A DNA stretch of 64,000 nt from positions 20,627,692 through 20,691,691 of the forward strand of contig OZ038533.1 in the NCBI GenBank assembly GCA_964036665.1, in the 5' to 3' direction. This DNA comes from Gordius sp. MW1 (lineage: Eukaryota; Nematomorpha; Gordioida; Gordea; Gordiidae). Made by a program: the position numbers and the translations under genes. This document shows, piece after piece, positions 11,661-59,815 of the stretch (the first letter of the stretch is position 1; the number at the start of each line of letters is the position of its first letter). The notes below the pieces were generated by a model, which did not search any database, was not told the origin of the DNA, and saw only the letters and a program-made list of their open reading frames with translations.

Positions 11661-13010
11661 CTATTTGCAGTTGCCAGTAGTGGCCGGTCTCTTTATTTTT
11701 TCCAAAATATCTTTAGCCCTTTTTTGCATTCTCTTGTCCAGTCCAAAGTTAATGTAAAATACAATTATAAAATACAATAGTTCAAGGCTATGACCAGATT
11801 CAACGAGCCAATCCATGTTAAAGCGAGTGGATGGTCGAATGTTTTCCAAATGTTGTCTGAGTGTTACCGTCAATAAGGCCGGAATGTGACATAAACAATA
11901 GAGTACGAAATAAATTATAGAGGAAATGTTACACAATATGTCCCGCTTCCAAATCTTTCGCATCCTAATATGATAATTTCTCTTTCTTTTGAGGGTTGCA
12001 GCTTTATCTCCAAACTGTTGCGTTTTGCTGTTGAAATTTAAAACCGTATCTTCGCTAGAACGAGCATTAACTTTATCGTCAATGCTCACATTAGCCTTTT
12101 CAAGTTTGTTGGGCAACAGCTTTGTCTTTGCTATATTCATTAAACTATGCCTCATTCGTCTTTTTCTAATGCGTCGGGCGTGGAGAAAGGCGTACAGGGA
12201 AAGACTGATGTAAATACCGAAATAGAGGATAAAAAGGCCTGGTAATGCGGATAGTACAATCTCCCGAAAGATATCGTAATAATATAGCCACAAAGGTTCG
12301 TGCAACTTCCTCTTGTAAAACATCATGGAGGCATAGCATTTTAAGCCTTGAGAAGTTCTGTTCAAAGTAAGGCCTTCTAGGTATTTGACAAACTTTTTTG
12401 CATTTATATTTATAGGACTTTCTTTAACACCACAAAGAGTGCTCGCTATGCAAGACCCGACGTCATACCATACATAACTCGAGCAGCACATTAAGGTAGC
12501 TACGAACCAAAATAACAACGGGAGTATTCGTAGGAACTTGTTACTTTGATATTTTGTGCCGCAGGACATAGGAAATTTGAGGGAAACGAATCTATCTGCT
12601 AACAGCAAGCACAAGGCAAAGACGCTTGCCTTCGACATAGATTTCAAGGCGATTAACTGATACCGCGACACAAACACCATCCACTCTAGATTGAAGTTGT
12701 ATGGCGAATGAATTTGCTGTCTTATTTTTTCCCCCAAATAACAAGCGTACATGCAACAGTAGCCCAGGTTAAATGAGACTTGATACCTCATGTAGTGCTC
12801 GTTCAAGGTAGCCATTCTACTCGGTGTTTTGTGTAAAAGAAACATACCCATACCGTTGCCCACCATGCCTATTATAATAAGAATTGGACCCACGATGAAG
12901 TTGTAAAACGTCCCATAATTCCATAGTAGCTGAGTAGGTTTATATGTAATTGGATTAAGCTTGCAAAAATTGACACTGAAAGAATGTATAGTGGAATTGT
13001 AGTGGATCAT
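11661..13010 (-). CDS. Divergent class-A (rhodopsin-like) GPCR, single exon, 449 residues
   Basis: This is a seven-helix plasma-membrane receptor with unknown ligand. Approximate layout: N-terminus with sequon N5-S-T; TM1 36-59 with the GN pair at 51-52; TM2 73-93; TM3 117-138 followed by ADRFVSLKFP, a DRY variant with Phe; TM4 160-180; TM5 around PGLFILYFGIYISL; a basic third intracellular loop of roughly 80 residues; TM6 with YFVLYCLCHIPAL (a variant CxxP motif); TM7 with FYINFGLDKR in place of NPxxY. The start ATG at 13008-13010 gives a plausible short extracellular tail. No intron is needed. It shares YxWxxVxSCI after TM4 and PGxFILYFGxxIS in TM5 with the receptor at 54.7 kb, so it is probably a paralog of it. 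Its family beyond class A is not identified. Confidence 0.88.
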   Translation of the reverse strand: MIHYNSTIHSFSVNFCKLNPITYKPTQLLWNYGTFYNFIVGPILIIIGMVGNGMGMFLLHKTPSRMATLNEHYMRYQVSFNLGYCCMYACYLGEKIRQQIHSPYNFNLEWMVFVSRYQLIALKSMSKASVFALCLLLADRFVSLKFPMSCGTKYQSNKFLRILPLLFWFVATLMCCSSYVWYDVGSCIASTLCGVKESPININAKKFVKYLEGLTLNRTSQGLKCYASMMFYKRKLHEPLWLYYYDIFREIVLSALPGLFILYFGIYISLSLYAFLHARRIRKRRMRHSLMNIAKTKLLPNKLEKANVSIDDKVNARSSEDTVLNFNSKTQQFGDKAATLKRKRNYHIRMRKIWKRDILCNISSIIYFVLYCLCHIPALLTVTLRQHLENIRPSTRFNMDWLVESGHSLELLYFIIVFYINFGLDKRMQKRAKDILEKIKRPATTGNCK

Positions 13011-13579
13011 GGTGAAATAGATGTTGTATGAAAGCCTTTCCTATCGAACGAACGGATTATCTGATGGCTGTTGCTTACCTTGCCTATCAACTAAAAACGT
13101 CAATTGGTATTGAAATATTAAAAAACAACAAGGGAATGGTTTATTAAAATAGAGTTTCTGAGTCATCAAAGGGCATGCAATGATTCAATAGCTGTGCGCT
13201 ACCTGTATATCTTTAAAAGATATGATGTTTGTTTAAGGTTGTTGAATTGTTATTTGCAAAAAATTGATGGTTAAAAATAAGAAATAAAATAAAACTTTAA
13301 TTTGCCTTAGTTCTGAATGGTGAATATGCAGGGCTTGCGTCCAACTCTATTCCCATCCAACCGATTTTGTTATCCTTCTTAGATGCGCAGTCTTTTCAAT
13401 TGCTACTGTCTATAGTTATACATATTTTTATTTTAATAACTGTTTAAGTAAACATATTGTTATTTATAGACATGTAGAATTTATCAATGGGGGGACCGTA
13501 TTAAAATTTTAAGATAATAAAATAATACACCACGCTTAGCTAAATTTAAAATATACATAGCAAATAAAAATCATAAGCA
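13011..13579. other. Upstream region of GPCR 1
   Basis: This is AT-rich and probably holds the promoter and 5' leader of the minus-strand receptor. I see no clear TATA box in the right place and no other gene. Confidence 0.4.
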
Positions 13580-14060: not shown

Positions 14061-15897
14061 AGAAAAGGCTAGGGCGTCCTCCACAAACGACGCGCACTGC
14101 ATACCCCGCCCGTGCAATGTGAAAAATACACTAGGGTCACTGCCCAACTCACAACGAAGGCGGTTAAGGAAATTAGTTGTTGAAAGAATGCGAATAACGT
14201 GTTGGAATGTGGGAACGTTGACGGGGAAGAGCATCGAGGTTGCACAAATGCTAAAAAGAAGAAAGGTACACATCGCCTGCCTACAAGAGACGAGGTAACG
14301 GAACGAAAGCTCGGGAATTAGGAGAAGGATACAAGCTTTTCTACAGTGGGTCACCAAATCGTAGAAACGGGGTCGGTATCGTTCTTAGCGAATCGTTAAA
14401 GGACAAGGTGGTGGAAGTCAAGCGTTGTTCCGACAGGCTAATGTGGGTGGAGATTGCAGATCAAGGGGGCCTTCTAACCGTTATGTGCGCGTATGCTCCC
14501 CAAATTGGGTGTATGGAATCAGAGAAAGACATATTCTTCGATTCATTGGAAAAAGAAATACAAGGAATGCGACCCGAAGAAAGGCTAATTATTGGGGCCG
14601 ATTTCAACGCTCACGTAGGGAAAGATCGTCTCGGGTATGAACGTAATCATGGAGGCTATGGGCATGGTCTGAAGAACAAAGAAGGGGAAAAACTTCTCCA
14701 ATTATCCCAAGCATATGACATGGCGATCGTTAACACCTATTTTCAAAAACGAGAAGATCATATTGTGACCTATAGAAGTGGGAAGCATTTTAGTCAAATT
14801 GACTATTTGCTTATACGGCGAAAGGACTTATGGAGGATCAAGGATTGCAAAGTAATACCGGGAGAAGAATCGCCAGGCAACATCGTCCCCTTGTTGTGGA
14901 TCTTGATAGAAGAGTATTTACCGAAAGAAGAAAGGTCTATGAACCTCGAATTCGATATGAAAGGCTGAACGATACGTCGACAAGCGAAAAATATCATCAA
15001 AAAGCCTCCTCACTCTTGGGTGCAAGGAAGTTGCAAAGAGACGTAGACGACGATTGGGAGACGCTATCTAAGGACCTTAAGGAAACAGAGATTCATGTTC
15101 TAGGACAGACCAAAGGAGGCAAAGCTATGAATAGGGAACTATGGTGGTGGGATAAATCGGTTAGGGATTTCATCGAAAGAAAGAAAAATCTATATAGACG
15201 GTGGCATAAATCAAAAAAGTCGGAGGATTATCAAGAGTATAGGGATGCAAAGAGGGCCGCAAAAAAGGCCGTTGCAATAGCGAAGAATGCCGCCTACACC
15301 GAGATAGCAAACAAACTGGATCATAAAGGGGGCGATAGGCTTATGTACAAATTGGCCAAGATAAGGGAGAAGAAAAGTCGCGATGTCGGAGTTCTTAAAA
15401 TAGTCAAAAACGAGAAGGGTCAAACCTTATTCAAGCCAAAAGAAGTGATGGAAAGGTGGAAAGGATATTTTAAAGAACTTATGAATATTGCAAATGACAA
15501 GGATTTCCTTCCCAAAATTGAGCCGAATATAAGTTTGGTCGAACTCTTTCAGGAGGATGAAGTTAGGACACAAATGAACAAGATGCAAAAAGGAAAAGCA
15601 AATGGCCCAGATGGAATCCCTATAGAAGCATTGCTCGGATGTCGTGAAGAAGGAGTCACCACCATGACGAAATTTCTTAACAAGATATTGGTAGAAGAGC
15701 GAATTTGTAATCAATGGAGAGCAAGCACGATTATACCCTTATTTAAAGGCAAAGGAGACCCTCAAGACTGTGGCAATTACAAAGGTATCAAGCTAACTTG
15801 CCACTCCTTGAAGCTTATAGAAAGGATCTTAGTAACAAGGCTAAAAAACGAGGTGGAAATATCGGCGAGACCCAATCTTAAGACAAATAATGGATAA
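14061..15897 (+). pseudogene. LINE copy 1: endonuclease domain and N-terminal RT part, frameshifted
   Basis: The AP-endonuclease motifs read in order across frames: RITCWNVGTLTGKS, CLQETR (frame break just after, near 14297), VMCAYAPQIGC, LIIGADFNAHVGKDRLGYE and FSQIDYLLIRRKD. A second frame break follows near 14875, then QHRPLVVDLDRR. The frame 14830-15897 continues through a Lys/Arg-rich linker into early RT motifs: KANGPDGIPIEALL, LFKGKGDPQDCGNYKGIKL and LIERIL. It ends at a small deletion near 15860 that removes the QFGFxxGxST motif still visible in copy 2. Confidence 0.88.
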
Positions 15898-16967
15898 GTA
15901 TGGTGAAAAGAGGAAAGACCTACATATGGTCTTTATCAACTTGGAGAAAGCTTATGACACGGTTCCCCGCGATTTAATATGGTGGTGCCTGAGAAAACAA
16001 AATATTCCTGACGCATATATACGGCTTATGAAAAATATTTTTGTAGCCTCAAACTCTTGCGTTAGGACGACAGTTGGAGACTCTAAATCTTTTCGGGTTA
16101 AAATTGGATTACATCAAGAATCTGCTTTAAGTCCCTTTTTATTTAATATAATTATAGACACGATAACGATGGACATTCAAAAGCCATCGCCATGGTGTAT
16201 GCTATATGCCGATGATATAGTACTATGCTAGGAAACAAGGGACAAAGTATTCGAAGAAGCCGAAAAGTGGTCGAAGCGCTTAGCTGGATATGGTTTAAAG
16301 GTCAACGATCGAAAAACGGTATACATGGAAATGAACGGTACAAGCACCCCATCGCTGGATGACCATCTAAAATACCCCAAAGTAGACAGGTTTACATACC
16401 TCGGCTCGATGCTACATCAAGAGGGAGGTTGCACAACAGAAGTCAATGCCCGGATCGAAAAAGGATGGCTTAAATGGCGAAGTATATCCGGTGCAATGTG
16501 CGACAAGAAAATGCCAATATGGTTGAAGAGCAAAGCTTACAAATCCATCGTAAGACCGGTGTCACTATATGGAAGTGAAACATGGGCACTAAACACCACG
16601 GAAGGCAAGCTATTACAAGCCACAGAGATGAGAATGATACGGTGGAGCTTGGGGTATACTAAGCTCGGTGACGAATGACTTTCTCATGACAAAAATGGGT
16701 ATTCAACCTATGGCGGACATGATTAACGGAAATCGGCTAAGGTGGTATGGGCATATACTAAGAAGGGACACGGATGACGTCAATCAAAAAGTACTGGACA
16801 TGGAGGTACCGGGGAAGAGAGGAAGAGGACGACCCCGTGTCACGTGGAAAGAGCAAGTCGATAAAGTTATGAAAACTAAAGAGATTAGTCAAGACATGGC
16901 ACTCATTCGGTCAAGATGGAAGAAGCTTATCAAAACAAACCCCACGAATCTGGGACCCAATAACTGA
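15890..16967 (+). pseudogene. LINE copy 1: RT palm and C-terminal part, broken
   Basis: RT motif A reads VFINLEKAYDTVPRDLIWW; the first catalytic Asp (DLEKAYD in copies 2 and 3) is Asn here. Motif C is MLYADDIVLC, then an in-frame TAG near 16231. After the stop come a SGLKV-like block, FTYLGSMLHQEGG and a TETWAL-like block (SETWAL). A frameshift near 16675 leads to RLRWYGHILRR and GKRGRGRPRVTWKEQ, the tail usual for this LINE type. The Asp-to-Asn change, the stop and the frameshift make it inactive. Confidence 0.88.
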
Positions 16968-41531: not shown

Positions 41532-42216
41532 TAGAGGTCTGCAAAGTCACTTTTTTTCAACCCAAACCCGACCCGAAAGCGTTTTTAAATTTTCAACCCG
41601 AACCCGACCCGACCCGAAAGCGTTTTTAAAATTTCAACCCGAACCCGACCCGACCCGAAAGCGTTTTTAAATTTTCCCGACCAAGTAGAAAAATTTCAGG
41701 ATAAAAAATTTATTCGACAGAAATGATCATACAAAATTTGATTAATTAATTTATTAAATTGATTTACTAAAAATATGTATAAATATTGTGGCGTCTACAA
41801 TTTCGGGGCGTAAATTAGCCCTTCTCTCTTCTATAATTCTCCCAGCAGTGTAAAAAAACCTCTCGCTACTGGTAGACTATAATAGACTATAAACAATAAT
41901 AAATTATCATTTGTTAATATTTTACCTTTCGGGATTCAGCTTTAAATTTAAATTTGCCTCCAAATAAACGAAAACAATAGAAAAGGAAATTGATTATATG
42001 AATGAATGATTATAATTAATTATACAATTCTATATTGTTTAACAAAAATTATAGATTATAGCATTAATTTAACAAATACGTTTCGTTCATTTTGTAATGT
42101 AAGATTCATATCCTTTGAACCGGCTCTATAAATCCAACCGGACCCGACCCGAAAGCATTCTAAAATTTTCAACACCCGACCCGACCCAAAATTCGGGTGA
42201 CCCGTGCAGGCCTCTA
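41532..42216. mobile_element. 685-bp non-autonomous hAT element
   Basis: The ends are TAGAGGTCTGCAAAGTC and GACCCGTGCAGGCCTCTA. The flanks ACTCTAAT (41524-41531) and ACTATAAT (42217-42224) form an 8-bp duplication with one mismatch. CCCGACCCGAAAGCGTTTTT-type subterminal repeats occur at both ends. The middle is AT-rich and non-coding. Confidence 0.92.
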
Positions 42217-42615
42217 ACTATAATGTACATCGTTTTCCAGATATAGTGTGGCAAATTTTAATAAGGGGAAGGGGTTGAAATAAAATATAAATAACAGAAC
42301 CTATAGATAAAACTTTAATCTATAGGAATAAATTAATATTTTTTAGTATAGATGCAAAATGCGGTGAATACAGCTACAAGATGGGTTAAAATGGCCATTT
42401 TCAAATTTTTAACCTTGTTTATCTAAAAACTGGAGGGTTTAAAAAAATACTAAAATAATATTATTATTGAGCACAAAAGTCTCAATTAGAATTGTTATCC
42501 GATTGCGGGATAGCATCACAAGGTCAACATTTGTAGACCAGTGTATTCAATATATATTTTTTCCTTGTGATTCTCACATCTGTTTTTAAGCTTTAGTTTT
42601 TATTTTTGGAGGGAA

Positions 42616-42706
42616 ATGAAAGCCTTTTTTATATTTATACTAGTTTATAGACTCCATTCATCACCTATAATTCCCGTTAATAATGCTTTATATCCAGTTC
42701 TTCTAA
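42616..42706 (+). CDS. PLA2G15-like exon 1 with signal peptide
   Basis: The ATG opens MKAFFIFILVYRLHSSP, a short signal peptide, and continues to NALYPVLL. The donor CTAA|gtaatt leaves phase 1, and the join to exon 2 gives PVLLIPGDGG, aligning with PVVLVPGD of the human enzyme. This alignment is the main reason for choosing this start. Confidence 0.8.
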
Positions 42707-45700
42707 GTAATTTATTGTATACTAAATTTCTGCATGAATAAACCTAATAAGCAAATCTATAAGAAGTTATATTCAAGAAAGCCTTAACTTTAATATTTTT
42801 TAATCTAATAATTTTTATTAATAACAAATGCAATAATAGCATTTAATTAAATTATACTTATTAAGCTTACCTATGAGTTTCTATATCTTGTTAGGGTACT
42901 CTATAGCCAGTATTAAAAAGCATTGATTTTAAAATTAATTTATTGACAAATATAAATAACTCATTATATTTAATTTGTAAGCTTAGATTATTTAACATTA
43001 TGTTGTAGTACCAGGAGATGGTGGTAGTCACCTGGAAGCTCGACTCAACAAATCTTATGCTCCACATTATGTTTGTGACAAATACACCACAGAATGGTTT
43101 AATATTTGGTTAAACTTAGAGTTGCTCATGCCTTATGTCATTGACTGCTGGGTTGATAATGTCAAGTAAATTTTAATTTTTTATAATCTTAAATTTTAAC
43201 ATTTTTGGATTTATTGCTGCTGATCATGTGTTTACAAATTTTTAAATACAAATTTTTTGTTAAAGAATCCAAAATTTAAAAATGATGATATTTATTATTT
43301 TGGAACTTAGGCTTAATTATGACCCAGTCACCCACACTACTAGAAATACAATTGGGGTTGATATAAGGGTGCCTGGTTTTGGTAATACAACTACTATTGA
43401 ATGGATAGATCCCAATCAGAGATCCGTTAGTAAGCGGATTGGTATACATATATAAAACTCTCCTTTATTAACCCATTATGAAAAGGATATAAATTTTAAT
43501 TTAAGATTAGAGAAATTCTAAGATGTCTTTTAGTTAGGAATATTATTTTTCTCAATTTAATCAAAATATTCGATTCAAGTCATGATTATAATTGCATTTT
43601 TTCTCATCATTATTATAACTGGAAAGATATACTGTAAATTTGATAGTTTTTTTTAGCATTGTTTTGTAAGTACTAGCACCTTTTCAAATTAGGTTATACA
43701 GAAAACCATTACAAATTTTAATTTAGTATTATCTTATTTGATGCATTTTCATAAAAACAAATTTAATAGAAACATACCCTTTTTTGTTATTATATTTTCC
43801 TTTAAATGTTTTTATCTTGTGGTAAATGTAGCTTTATCAAAGTTTGATAATTTGCATCAGGTCGCTATTTTGCCTCTATAGTGGATAAATTGGTGACAAT
43901 GGGACTGGTCAGAGGTGTAAGTATAAGAGGAGCTCCCTACGATTTTCGGAAAACGCCATGTAAGTTATCTTTATCTACAAACACAAGCAATGCCACAAAT
44001 TCTTTATTTTAAATCAAATGGTAAAATTAAAACAAAAGATATTTGAAAGCTTACAAAATTATTTTCAAGTTGATTATAAATTTACAATGTTCTTCCTTTT
44101 GTTGAAATGTAGGCAAAAGTAGTAGGGGACTGACATAATAATGGTCATTTTATTATTTTCAATAATTTACATCCTATTTTTGTATATTTAAAAACTTTTA
44201 AAGGCTTTGCTAGTTTGGGTAGATAAAATAACACTTTAATTTTTTATAATTTTCTGATTTTATCCCGGATCCATCATAAAATTGAAGTGGAAAACGAAGA
44301 ACTCTTTAAAAATATGATAAAATTGGTGGAAGACATGTTTAAGTCATTTAATGCCACACCATTGGTATTGATATGTCACAGCATGGGTTGCATCTACATC
44401 AAGTATTGGCTCCAGACCATGCCGACCCCGTGGAAAAGCAAATACATAAAAGCTTGGATAACCCTTTCATCTCCTTGGGCCGGAACCGTGAAAGCTCTCA
44501 AAATGTTTGCTGCAGGTTTGCTCTCATATACATTACATATACGTCCTTTAGGAATTAGCAAAGGCTATACTAGTGATGTAATGAGAGGGTCTGCTAAACT
44601 AATATTATGGTTTGCCATAAATAATAGTCTCTCTTCTTTTTAGGACTTTGAATGTGAGCGTGGTGCAAGGCTAGCACTAGTAGATTAATTTGTCGTAGAG
44701 ACTCGGATGTGCCACTCGATAGATATATGCTTATTGAGCGTCTGATATCATGCTGTGTGCAGTTGCGTGCAGTCATATATAGACAATCTAAGCTTCTGGA
44801 GTGTAGCTAGAAAACAGGGCACATGATGCGGTGCTTAAAACATATCAACAATGCTCGCCTCATAGTAGTGTTATCTAAGATGGGGGGGGGGACCTTTCAC
44901 TAGGGAAGCACTCTCACGATAAACTCTTTTGATGGTGATAGAACTAAGTCTGTTTACTCCTTTTACCAGCTAAGGTGTAATAAGAGGCGCTAGTTAACAT
45001 CATTACGAAATAGTCTATGCTCACGTTACAATAATCTACTATGAGGCTAAATTTAAATTTGTTTCGGAAAGTATTATTTTTTAATTTTTGGTAACATTTT
45101 GTTCTTAGATCTACTTGATATGTGTTTATTTGCCTTGTGTCTAGGTGATAACTTAGATGCATACCCCTTGAACGCGCTCAAGATCAGAGATTCACAAAGA
45201 ACGTATCCTAGTTTAGCTTGGCTACTGCCCAGGCGGGAATTTTGGGCCGACAACGAAACTATAGCCACTACCCCGGCCAAAAATTATAGCGTGCGGGAGA
45301 TGGATCTATTTTTTAAAGATATTAACCTGACTGACCGTAATTCATGAAGAATAAAATCAATTATTTTTACGCTTTTAAATCTATAAACCTTAAAACGTCT
45401 CTTTTTATCATTCTCATTGTTAACTATTTGGATTTTATATTATAATAAGTCAGTACCTTAGTGCTCCCCCCTTCCCTACTTTTCAGAATTGCTAATAAAC
45501 TCTAGATGCTTATAAGTCCAAATTCTGGCTGACATGTTCTTTAATATGTTTACGAGTTTTTGACATTTAAAAGGTTTTCTGAGCTTTATAATTTTTAGTC
45601 CTCTAAACTAGTTTTTTGAAATTATTGGATTGTATTCTTAAACAATAATTATCTTGAACTGAAAGCTAGGGTTTATAGGAAATTATTAAAATCGAACCCA

Positions 45701-48625
45701 ACTGTGTTGAAAAATAAATTTGTATAGTGGTCAAGTTAATCAATATCAATATAAAATTGTTAGGATTTACTGGTAGTGTTAATAATCGCAGACAGTCTTA
45801 TTATTTGTTATATCGGCTCTAATTTATACCTATAAATTATCCAGTTGAAAATTAAATTCAAAGATACCCATATGAAATTATATTTATCGACAAATATTTA
45901 TTAAATAATTGAATACCTCAAAGGATAGAGGGCGTGCGAAGCGAAATAACTTGATAAATGCGACGTCTCAAGTTCCTATTGCTACAACAAACATTGCAGT
46001 TTGTAGTTTACTGCCTATAATGGTAAAAAGTGAAAAAAGTCCTGTCTCGTCCTCGTCTTGTTACTATATTATACCATGTATATTAATAATTTTTAATTGT
46101 GGTTTCTAGCGATAGAGATGTGGAAGGATAACAGGGACTTGATCGATTTGCAAAGGGGTCCGGGCGGGGTAGAGCTTCATTGCCTGTACGGCGTCAACGT
46201 GTCAACGCCCGAGCGGCTGATATGGAGTCGGGCTAAAGACTTCCCAGATCGGCAACCCCTGATCGGGGCTGGTGATGGGGACGGATCCGTAAATTACAGA
46301 AGTCTGGACGCCTGTAGCCGTTGGAATAATCGTAGGAATTATGCTCCCCTCAATACTTTATTCTTACTTTTGAAAGGCGAGCTAGGGCGTATTTAGGGGA
46401 AATTGTCCATCCATTGACGCCCTTTTTATTTTTGCTTGTGATAGCGTCGTTCTTAATGTTTTGCATTGACTACAAATTTCTCCCCGGATCTAAGTGTTAA
46501 GGATTAAATAGCGCGCGTGAAAATTTTAAAAAGTTAATGATATAGCTGCATAAAGTTTTGGATTCTCAACACATTAAATCTGACTTATGAATTATCTAAG
46601 GAGCTTAGACGCTTTAGCAATTTGTTTAGCTGCGGAAAAGACTTTACGAAATTATGGCAGCGAAAATGACACACGGTTAAAGCATTTAAATTTTATATAT
46701 TTTGCACCCTAAACGATAGTAATCAATGTTAAGACTATCCCTTGGTATTTATAAGCAAAACTATTTAAATGTGTGCAAAATATTCTTTTGAAAGGGGGAT
46801 GAGTGCTCCGTGACATAAAATAAAAGTTCCCTACTAATTCCTAACCCTACTAAATGTCGTCATCGTGTTAAAAATCCACATTTTGCAGTTCTTTTACCGA
46901 TACTACTCTACTTTATATTATAGTTTAAAAAGGGGAAAGGGCTAACTCTAATATTTCGTAGCTGGGAATTTTAGTTCGCACATTTTTTGGCTACTAGTCG
47001 TTTTAGGCAACCGTGGATCCATATTTTACACACGACTTCGAATTTCCTTCGTAGAAAATGGCATGGAGAGGGGTTTGAAATTTGTTTGTAAAACTTATAA
47101 TTTCATAAGTTAATTAGGGTTTGTGAACCGTGTACAGTTTCCTCCATCTTAATCTTGTTTTTAAAATTAATTTTTATGACCTGACAGCAACCCTGATCGG
47201 GACTTTGGTAGGTCGTCGTATCACAATTGATGATATGAAATATAATATGGGACGTTTTGAAAGTTCTTATTTGCTATCATATAAATTTTTTATTAGTAAA
47301 TGGACATTAAAGATTTTGCTATCATAAGCAATCGATCGCATGAGAAGGTGAATAGTGATATAATTACATAGGTAAGATTCACATGTTTATTCTTCTCACG
47401 AATTTTTGACGGGAAGTCCTTATGTGAAATCATCGATGAGTTTTTTACCGTGAGTAATTTGTTAAGTTGGGGTAAATAATAAAATGTGTTCGTTCTTTAC
47501 TTACACTCTTTAACCAATTTTAATTTTGCCTGCCCCTCCCTCCCAACAAATACGAAAATTTAATCAAAAAGACCTCTTGATGTTACCCAAATGATATCTA
47601 AACTTAAAAAAGTACATAATTTTTTCTGACGCTACAAAACTTTATAGGAAACCCTGGTGAGGTGACGATGTATCTTAATTTACACTTTTTCTTTCCCCTT
47701 TTTCAGTTCCAGTGAATCTGCTGGACGGCCTAAGCGGTTTGGGTAGGAAAGCGAGAGAAAGGGTGATTCGAAAAACGTTTCCCCTCGTTGAACACGTTCA
47801 CATTCTCTACAATAAAGACGTGATCGATTACATTGCCTCTGTGGTTAGTGGTCAGCCCCCGCCCACACACCACTACGGACCTTTTAAAAGTACGTCTCTC
47901 CCGCATACCCAAATTATAATTTATTACTCAATTCTTGCCAATTTTTAATCAAAGAATGGGGCTCTTTTTATATTAATAAGTTGAAAAATCTATAAACTTC
48001 TTTGATTGTCCAGATTTTGCTATGATTACATTCTGGTGCGTTGGGCTTGAAGAACGCAATCCTGCGTTTTTTGTTTTTGTTAATATACCTCTTTTGTTAT
48101 AATCTGTCCTTTTTAGCTTAATTCTGTAAAAAATATGACATTTATTTACTATCAAACTGAAACTTTTTTTCACTGATTTCATAATCATCTACCTTTTGAC
48201 CTTTAGCCTTTCCCGAAGACATCTATGCCGATGAAAGGGCATTTAAACCCGACACCTCCTCACATTCGCTGCAAAGGACTCTGCCCTGGTTCTTCCTATC
48301 CATATGGCAAAACACGAAAGCCTTCTTTAGCTGGCACCTGGAGGAATCTAACTTAAGGGCACCACCCTTAGTACCCATCCCCTCTCCCCCATTATTTTTC
48401 CCACTCACGGGTGTGCCCAAACACGTGGGGGGCCCTCTTGGAAATAGCGTGAGAATTGTTTGTAATCAAAGTGGCGAGCCTTTCGATCAGCAGCCATCTC
48501 CGCTCCACACCACTGAATTGTTACTACATTACGGGGTGTCTTTGCTCTTTTGCTTGGCTATAGTGGCCATTATACTAATTCTGCACAAATCTATCACCTC
48601 CACCTACCAACGTGTTTCCTCATGA
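42616..48625 (+). CDS. Lysosomal phospholipase A2 / LCAT-like acyltransferase (PLA2G15-like), 9 exons, complete
   Basis: This is an alpha/beta-hydrolase of the LCAT superfamily. Family members cut the sn-2 (or sn-1) acyl chain of phospholipids and can transfer it to ceramide or sterol. Exons 42616-42706, 43009-43165, 43311-43429, 43861-43959, 44288-44515, 45145-45336, 46110-46331, 47707-47889 and 48207-48625 join in one frame to 569 residues. Seen: signal peptide (about 1-16), LLIPGDGGS near the oxyanion site, WLNLELLMPYVIDCW, VRGVSIRGAPYDF, nucleophile CHSMGC (Ser187), APW-like SSPWAG, GDGDGSVN (Asp near 351-353) and LVEHVHI (His399). After the catalytic domain comes a Pro-rich extension of about 100 residues and a helix (about 540-556) with a short cytoplasmic tail, which usual PLA2G15 proteins lack. 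The variant is therefore inferred to be membrane-anchored. Sterol acyltransferase activity cannot be excluded. Confidence 0.95.
43009..43165 (+). CDS. PLA2G15-like exon 2
   Basis: This exon encodes PGDGGSHLEARLNKS, YVCDKYTTEWFNIWLNLELL and PYVIDCWVDNV. It contains the Cys pair and Trp lid region typical of the family. The acceptor is tgtag and the donor GTCAA|gtaaa. Confidence 0.93.
43311..43429 (+). CDS. PLA2G15-like exon 3
   Basis: This exon encodes LNYDPVTHTTRNTIGVDIRV, PGFGNTTTIEWIDPNQRSV. The donor A|gtaagc at 43430 is preferred over a later gt because it restores SVSRYF, matching SVGSYF of the family. Confidence 0.9.
43861..43959 (+). CDS. PLA2G15-like exon 4
   Basis: This exon encodes RYFASIVDKLVTMGLVRGVS, IRGAPYDFRKTP. 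The GAPYDF/W block is a family hallmark. The donor is CCAT|gtaagt. Confidence 0.95.
44288..44515 (+). CDS. PLA2G15-like exon 5, nucleophile
   Basis: This exon encodes ENEELFKNMIKLVEDMFKSF, then PLVLICHSMGCIYIKYWLQ and SPWAGTVKALKMFAAG. Ser of HSMG is the nucleophile. The acceptor ttgaag is weak, but it is the only one that keeps phase. Confidence 0.93.
45145..45336 (+). CDS. PLA2G15-like exon 6
   Basis: This exon encodes DNLDAYPLNALKIRDSQRTY, PSLAWLLPRREFW and NYSVREMDLFFKDINLTD, aligning with the SxxSWLLP and FFQDI segments of the family. It carries several N-glycosylation sequons. Confidence 0.93.
46110..46331 (+). CDS. PLA2G15-like exon 7, catalytic Asp
   Basis: This exon encodes PGGVELHCLYGVNVSTPERL, FPDRQPLIGAGDGDGSVNYR and SLDACSRWNN. 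HCLYG and GDGDGSVN are family motifs. The donor AATC|gtagga fits exon 8. Confidence 0.93.
47707..47889 (+). CDS. PLA2G15-like exon 8, catalytic His
   Basis: This exon encodes VNLLDGLSGLGRKARER, TFPLVEHVHILYNKDVIDYI and a Pro-rich end. His of VEHVHI matches the triad His. The acceptor is tttcag and the donor AAAA|gtacgt. Confidence 0.93.
48207..48625 (+). CDS. PLA2G15-like exon 9, extension and membrane anchor
   Basis: This exon encodes about 138 residues: FPEDIYADERAFKPD, a Trp- and Pro-rich linker, then a hydrophobic stretch VSLLFCLAIVAIILIL, a short basic tail ending QRVSS and TGA. The length beyond the catalytic fold and the helix are unusual for the family. Confidence 0.88.
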
Positions 48626-58784: not shown

Positions 58785-59815
58785 ATATGCAATTTATGGG
58801 CTCACTTTCCATTTTGTTTGTCACGCTATTCGGCGTGCGCACCGAACGTGGATGTCACGCACCGAACGTGGATGTCACGCACCGTTTTGTTTACTTTTAA
58901 ATTTTGTTAATTTAACCAGTTTTTGGGTTCGAATCCCGGGTTTTTTTGACTTTATGATTGTTCCTGTTACTACCATTGCTATTATGACTTTTTGGCCGTC
59001 GGTGCTGACCAATGAAAAAAATGACCATTGGCCAAAATGTGAATCCAAGTTTATTTTTTCGTTTTTTTTCGACTATTATGATTGTTCCTGTTACTACCAT
59101 GCTATTATGACTTTTTGGCCGTCCGTTGGCTGCTGACCAATGGAAAAAAATGACTATTGGCCAAAATGTGAATCCAAGTTTATTTTTTCGTTTTTTTCGC
59201 CTATTATGATTGTTCCTGTAACTACCATTGATAATAAGACTTTTTGGCCGTCCGTTGGCTGCTGACCGATGGAAAAAAATGACCATTGGCCAAAATGTGA
59301 ATCCAAGTATATTTTTTCGTTTTTTTCGACTATTATGATTGTTCCTGTTACTACCATTGCTATTATGACTTTTTGGCCGTCCGTTGGGTGCTGACCAATG
59401 AAAAAAAAGACCATTGGCCAAAATGTGAATCCAAGTTTATTTTTCCCGTTGTTCCTGATTATTATGATTGTTCCTGTTACTACCATTGATAATAAGACGT
59501 TTTGGCCGTCCATTGGGTGCTGACCAATGAAAAAAAATGACCATTGGCCAAAATGTGAATCCAAGTTTATTTTTTCGTTTTTTTTCTCGCCTATTATGAT
59601 TGTTCCTATCTGTTGGTACTGACCAATTAAAAAAAATGATGTTTACTCTTATAAATTTATATCCACTTTTACCGTGTTTTGGTTGCTGACCAATGAAAAA
59701 ATGACCATTGGCCAAAATGTGATTCGAAAATTATTTTTTCGTATTTTTGACTTCTATGAATTTATAACCACCTCTACCCTGTCCTGGCTGCTGACCAATG
59801 AAAAAAATGACTTAT
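58785..59815 (+). repeat. W-type tandem array, about 129-bp period
   Basis: It opens with TTGATATGCAATTTATGGGC, two copies of GCACCGAACGTGGATGTCAC and GGGTTCGAATCCCGGG. Then GACTTTTTGGCCGTC or a variant recurs at 58985, 59109, 59238, 59367 and 59496 (spacings 124, 129, 129, 129), followed by decayed units. Each unit holds the dyad CTGACCAATG..AATGACCATTGGCCA. Frames of 90-170 codons in both strands are produced by the periodicity and are not genes. Confidence 0.9.

Follow-up and report, generated by a model that had tools for sequence, protein, structure and literature searches.

PLA2G15 (LPLA2) has the activities of an acidic PLA2 and a ceramide transacylase. It digests phospholipids in lysosomes and has been studied for drug-induced phospholipidosis, and electrostatic attraction is given as the way in which it binds anionic membranes (PMC8243516). 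The locus analysed here lies in a stretch of 64,000 nucleotides of Gordius sp. MW1, which we call the window. It raises the question of whether an enzyme of this type can be held in the membrane by a C-terminal extension of its own and, if so, in which compartment it would work.

At 42616-48625 on the forward strand, nine exons could be joined in frame from the ATG at 42616 to the TGA at 48625, all introns being GT-AG (Table 1). The ATG of exon 1 is the first in an open frame that starts at 42571. Exon 7 has two usable in-frame donors: donor 46332 gives a product of 569 residues, the length proposed in the initial annotation and obtained again here, and donor 46389 one of 588 residues. With an alternative acceptor for exon 8 the lengths become 586 or 567. 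The C-terminus is identical in all four models, as everything after exon 8 is unchanged. Residues are numbered throughout on the 588-residue model (exon-7 donor 46389). The 57 in-frame bases between the two donors (46332-46388) may encode 19 residues that are used alternatively, ahead of the catalytic His. Relative to human PLA2G15, the protein carries an insertion between the conserved Trp and this His of about 14 residues with the short donor or 33 with the long one. Because human PLA2G15 would lack about 14 of the Trp-His residues in the one case and 33 in the other, the short-donor model of 569 residues appears more likely than the long-donor model of 588. Rfam gave no match within the 64-kb window.

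Table 1: Coordinates of the exons of the predicted enzyme and of the C-terminal features encoded by exon 9.
Feature	Position	Strand	Content
Exon 1	42616..42706	+	Start codon, hydrophobic N-terminus MKAFFIFILVYRLHSS, beginning of the fold
Exon 2	43009..43165	+	PGDGG motif, Cys53 and Cys77
Exon 3	43311..43429	+	
Exon 4	43861..43959	+	
Exon 5	44288..44515	+	HSMG nucleophile motif, Ser187
Exon 6	45145..45336	+	AGDN region
Exon 7	46110..46388	+	DGDGSV acid motif, Cys320 and Cys364; alternative donor 46332
Exon 8	47707..47889	+	Insertion relative to human PLA2G15, LVEH (probable catalytic His418), fold end near G437
Exon 9	48207..48625	+	C-terminal extension: linker, predicted transmembrane helix, tail and stop; 419 bases including the stop
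Pro-rich linker	48209..48517	+	Mostly low model confidence; Trp/Phe-rich predicted helix 470-500; one N-glycosylation sequon, N536
Predicted transmembrane helix	48518..48583	+	About residues 554-575, ends assigned by hand; from hydropathy and the AlphaFold2 helix 548-587
Basic tail, 13 residues	48584..48622	+	HKSITSTYQRVSS; YQRV (YXXphi) from residue 583

The predicted protein matches the LCAT profile PF02450 with 210.8 bits (E 4.9e-62) against a family cut-off of 21, and its placement in the LCAT/PLA2G15 family is sound. At E <= 0.001 it matched eight distinct solved sequences, six from LCAT and two from PLA2G15. PLA2G15 4x90 ranked first (E 2.7e-103, 349.6 bits, residues 27-374), and the best LCAT structure (5bv7 and others) reached E 1.9e-82 and 280.8 bits. 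By bit score, compared between the two subfamilies with solved structures and without a tree, the enzyme is closer to PLA2G15 than to LCAT. The PLA2G15-like fold spans residue 27 to about G437. Ser187, in the HSMG motif, was aligned with the 4x90 Ser that 4x92 replaces by Ala, the DGDG acid motif was aligned with its counterpart in 4x90, and Cys53, Cys77, Cys320 and Cys364 fell on 4x90 cysteines. We take the four conserved cysteines to form two disulfides, and presumably the Ser, Asp and His named here are the catalytic residues.

The His is less straightforward. When the C-terminal piece of the short-donor model was compared unedited with 4x90, the best stretch stopped before the His, and only one of the eight rows obtained with this query (LCAT 5txf) spanned it, reaching query residue 115. 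With the insertion removed from the query, the piece aligned to the last residues of 4x90 (domain E 0.00058), LVEH lying on the SEH of 4x90 and VVSG, whose last residue is 437, matching the final residues of the 4x90 chain. His418 is therefore the probable catalytic His. The complete Ser/Asp/His triad claimed earlier holds for Ser and Asp, which align with PLA2G15, but for His it depends on the removal of the insertion from the query. Similarly, the N-terminus is hydrophobic, as expected of the signal peptide in the initial annotation, but it is short and no clean cleavage site is seen by eye.

To all appearances this is the only LCAT-family gene of the genome, as judged by a search made exon by exon in which the best candidates alone were scored. 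With PF02450 (E <= 0.001) two matches were found, both exons of this gene, and with the whole protein (E <= 10) nine, all again exons of this gene. A 367-residue piece of the enzyme had no confirmed relative in viral and prokaryote genome contigs, in a scan that detects close relatives only.

The 588-residue model continues for 151 residues past the end of the fold at G437, and the extension proposed earlier, of more than 100 residues with a Pro-rich linker, a hydrophobic helix and a short basic tail, was thus recovered. A soluble protein that ends with its fold is not what this gene would encode, given those 151 residues and the predicted membrane helix; solubility is typical of the human members, and we do not regard it as a defining trait of the family. 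The GC content of exon 9 is 0.489 against 0.17-0.38 in the introns, rising sharply at 48200 and declining more softly after 48600. Shuffling its bases left the reading frame without a stop in 19 of 5,000 trials. A codon model was trained on stop-free segments from 17 of 30 kinase loci (11,418 bases), four loci from one long frame having been left out and nine dropped for stops. Exon 9 scored in frame with z 3.2 (0.5-3.74 for the other eight exons), in a test that is weak, since the in-frame score itself was negative (-0.112) and three reverse-strand frames with 5-9 stops each scored higher. The tail third of the exon had an in-frame advantage (-0.145 against -0.245 and -0.246). In a faulty version of the test, which dropped minus-strand loci and used 13 of the 30 segments (five coming from one long frame), z was 2.75 for exon 9 and 0.28-3.91 for the other exons, and the tail third showed no in-frame advantage. 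Taken together, exon 9 looks coding. DNA and protein searches found it once in the genome, and an origin from a transposon was rejected because of this single copy. Exon 9 matched no Pfam family even when E values up to 10 were allowed, the best of the PDB chains reached an unconvincing E of 0.36, and no relative was confirmed in viral and prokaryote genome contigs, where animal genes are not expected.

Within exon 9 the most hydrophobic 19 residues have a Kyte-Doolittle mean of 2.56; when the exon-9 peptide was shuffled 20,000 times, 38 of the products attained this value. Among 149 other open frames of at least 60 residues in the window, all lying below position 42000 or above 49000, a hydropathy of at least 2.5 was found in two, and in none of the 47 of these frames with a GC content of at least 0.42. 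AlphaFold2, run on exon 9 alone from one sequence, gave a mean pLDDT of 65.3 and two helices, 470-500 and 548-587, with a poorly defined stretch between them; the second helix is the best defined, with block pLDDT values of 78, 91, 93 and 80. Helix 470-500 was considered as an amphipathic second membrane helix, and its hydrophobic moment is at most 0.41. The hydrophobic helix is flanked by basic residues towards the tail and by Glu553 at its other end. By the positive-inside rule, the basic flank of a membrane helix faces the cytosol, and the distribution of charges here fits a cytosolic tail. A basic polar tail after the hydrophobic helix argues against a GPI signal, and a GPI anchor was rejected for this reason.

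The tail contains a YXXphi motif, YQRV. Seven residues separate the end of the hydrophobic run (L575, a helix end assigned by hand) from Tyr583, so that the Tyr is the eighth residue of the tail. YXXphi motifs of lysosomal proteins are described as usually separated from the membrane by 6-8 residues; their x positions are as a rule acidic, and in some a Gly precedes the Tyr (PMC4584282). YQRV matches this type in its spacing, and both the acidic x residues and the preceding Gly are missing. When tails of 13 residues were drawn at random from the composition of this protein, 12.2% contained a YXXphi motif, and 6.3% contained one with the Tyr at positions 6-10. A further point against a sorting motif is that YQRV is predicted to be helical in the single-sequence AlphaFold2 model. 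As a lysosomal sorting signal the motif is suggestive, not proof. For the adaptor mu-type family PF00928, a search of the genome gave 12 matches at exon level.

The best reading of this sequence is a membrane-anchored PLA2G15. We give about an even chance to the fuller reading, a type I lysosomal phospholipase A2 that its own tail directs to endolysosomes. According to this model, the N-terminus would direct the protein into the ER, where the PLA2G15-like catalytic domain and its sequons would face the lumen, joined by a linker of about 115 residues to one transmembrane helix. Clathrin adaptors would then read YQRV in the cytosolic tail and carry the protein to endosomes and lysosomes. Lumenal membranes would be its site of action there, whether the enzyme stays tethered or is cut free within the linker, as happens to lysosomal acid phosphatase. 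According to the initial annotation, a tether would alter the enzyme's place of work in the cell. The anchored PLA2G15 stands as the best fit, but the relocation found no support: the tail has a YXXphi motif at lysosomal spacing, which suggests the same compartment reached by another route.

Several other explanations of the extension have to be weighed against this model. The same anchor and topology would serve a membrane-anchored ecto-enzyme at the cell surface, for example of the gut epithelium, that digests extracellular lipid much as brush-border phospholipase B does. YQRV would then be an endocytosis signal, since YXXphi motifs are described as serving internalization as well (PMC4584282), or a product of chance, given its chance level of 6-12%. 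We find this rather unlikely, as lysosomal PLA2G15 matches the catalytic domain better (E 2.7e-103) than plasma LCAT does (E 1.9e-82) and neither genome search turned up a further gene of the LCAT family; therefore this product probably must supply the lysosomal activity. It is also unlikely, and a little more so, that the main transcript encodes a soluble enzyme and exon 9 belongs to a minor splice or end variant. Read-through of intron 8 would stop after 19 further residues, giving 468 amino acids with the whole fold kept, and the two in-frame donors of exon 7 mean that the model is not unique. However, a search of intron 8 for AATAAA, ATTAAA, AATATA and AGTAAA found a single AATATA, and exon 9 has an exon-like composition and GT-AG sites.

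The remaining explanations seem to us very improbable. The splicing of exon 9 was predicted from one genome sequence alone, and the exon might be part of another transcript or be untranslated; against such an error of the model stand the fitting phase of exon 9, the GC step at 48200 and the codon z of 3.2, and its single copy shows that it is not a repeat. Slightly more doubtful still is an anchored acyltransferase resident in the ER, working in the manner of PDAT/Lro1, which belong to the LCAT family and also have a membrane helix. In PDAT/Lro1 this helix is N-terminal and here it is C-terminal, the tail ends in SS and carries no KKXX-type retrieval signal, and the closest solved relative is a lysosomal enzyme.

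Human PLA2G15 and LCAT are soluble, LCAT being a plasma enzyme. PLA2G15 4x90 shares with the predicted protein the catalytic fold (residues 27-437 here), the Ser/Asp/His motifs and the four cysteines. However, its solved chain has 380 residues and the match ends at 379, whereas here about 150 more residues follow, with the predicted membrane helix and the tail. LCAT (5bv7 and others) has the same family and fold with a weaker match. A membrane helix next to an LCAT-family domain is a feature in common with PDAT/Lro1, in which it is N-terminal, and with Arabidopsis LCAT1, both compared by description; we know of no comparable sorting tail in either. For Arabidopsis LCAT1, the term transmembrane protein is used in PMC13377104. 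Membrane-bound proteins of the LCAT family are already known, and what would be new is a PLA2G15 variant with a sorting tail. A transmembrane PLA2G15 was not described in the literature searched, that is, in titles and beginnings of abstracts among the matches listed, with few subscription journals. In Schistosoma japonicum, silencing of a PLA2G15 gene is reported to widen the gut, and the excerpt of that report does not mention an anchor (PMC11977999).

ACP2 offers a functional analogue of the proposed route. It has a type I topology, is released by cleavage, and has an unrelated catalytic fold. It is a lysosomal hydrolase whose C-terminal tail, like the one predicted here, has a YXXphi motif, and in ACP2 this motif is described as necessary and sufficient for lysosomal targeting (PMC9526733). 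It may be that the sole lysosomal phospholipase A2 of the lineage gained a C-terminal exon and so became a self-addressed membrane enzyme, held at the membrane of the compartment where it works and needing no receptor of the mannose-6-phosphate type; we put this forward tentatively, with more doubt than confidence. The idea that the anchor arose because the mannose-6-phosphate route was lost found no support: PF02157 (Man-6-P_recep) has two matches in the genome, so that soluble lysosomal enzymes may have a receptor route available. PF00878 and PF11380 had no genome matches, but the controls were equally silent and this result is uninformative. If the model is true, a soluble lysosomal enzyme can change its sorting route by acquiring one exon, and the protein would be a natural construct in which recruitment to the membrane does not necessarily depend on charge.

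Elsewhere in the window, two long single-exon frames lie on the reverse strand. The one at 54703-55920 matches the rhodopsin-type receptor family (E 1.8e-9), and the one at 11664-13040 has by eye the look of a seven-helix receptor, with no family above the cut-off. Fragmented, retrotransposon-like frames occupy 14255-16967 on the forward strand, including a weak endonuclease/reverse-transcriptase match below the cut-off at 14255-14965 (E 0.00065), and reverse-strand frames at 58912-59730 contain diverged repeat units such as WPMVIFF.

The genome consists of 12 contigs. One of them (C12, 14,798 bases) carries COX1 with an in-frame TGA, and the other eleven are presumably chromosomes. All four genetic codes tried keep the COX1 frame of C12 open, table 5 being the best by eye. 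Just before cox1 of the mitochondrial contig (L014:3635-4088) there is a tandem repeat that translates as YYYLTITLLLP. Many COX1-like matches with an in-frame TGA were also found in nuclear sequence, on C1, C3, C4, C5 and C8 (for example C8:2829490-2830827). One nuclear match comes close in strength to the one on the mitochondrial contig, and one COX1-like piece of C4 is present four times with equal score. An insect origin was rejected on repeat counts: four units of TCAGG had no match in the genome and four units of TTAGG had 12, and four units of TTAGGG were matched 24,301 times, the first listed matches lying at the start of C1.
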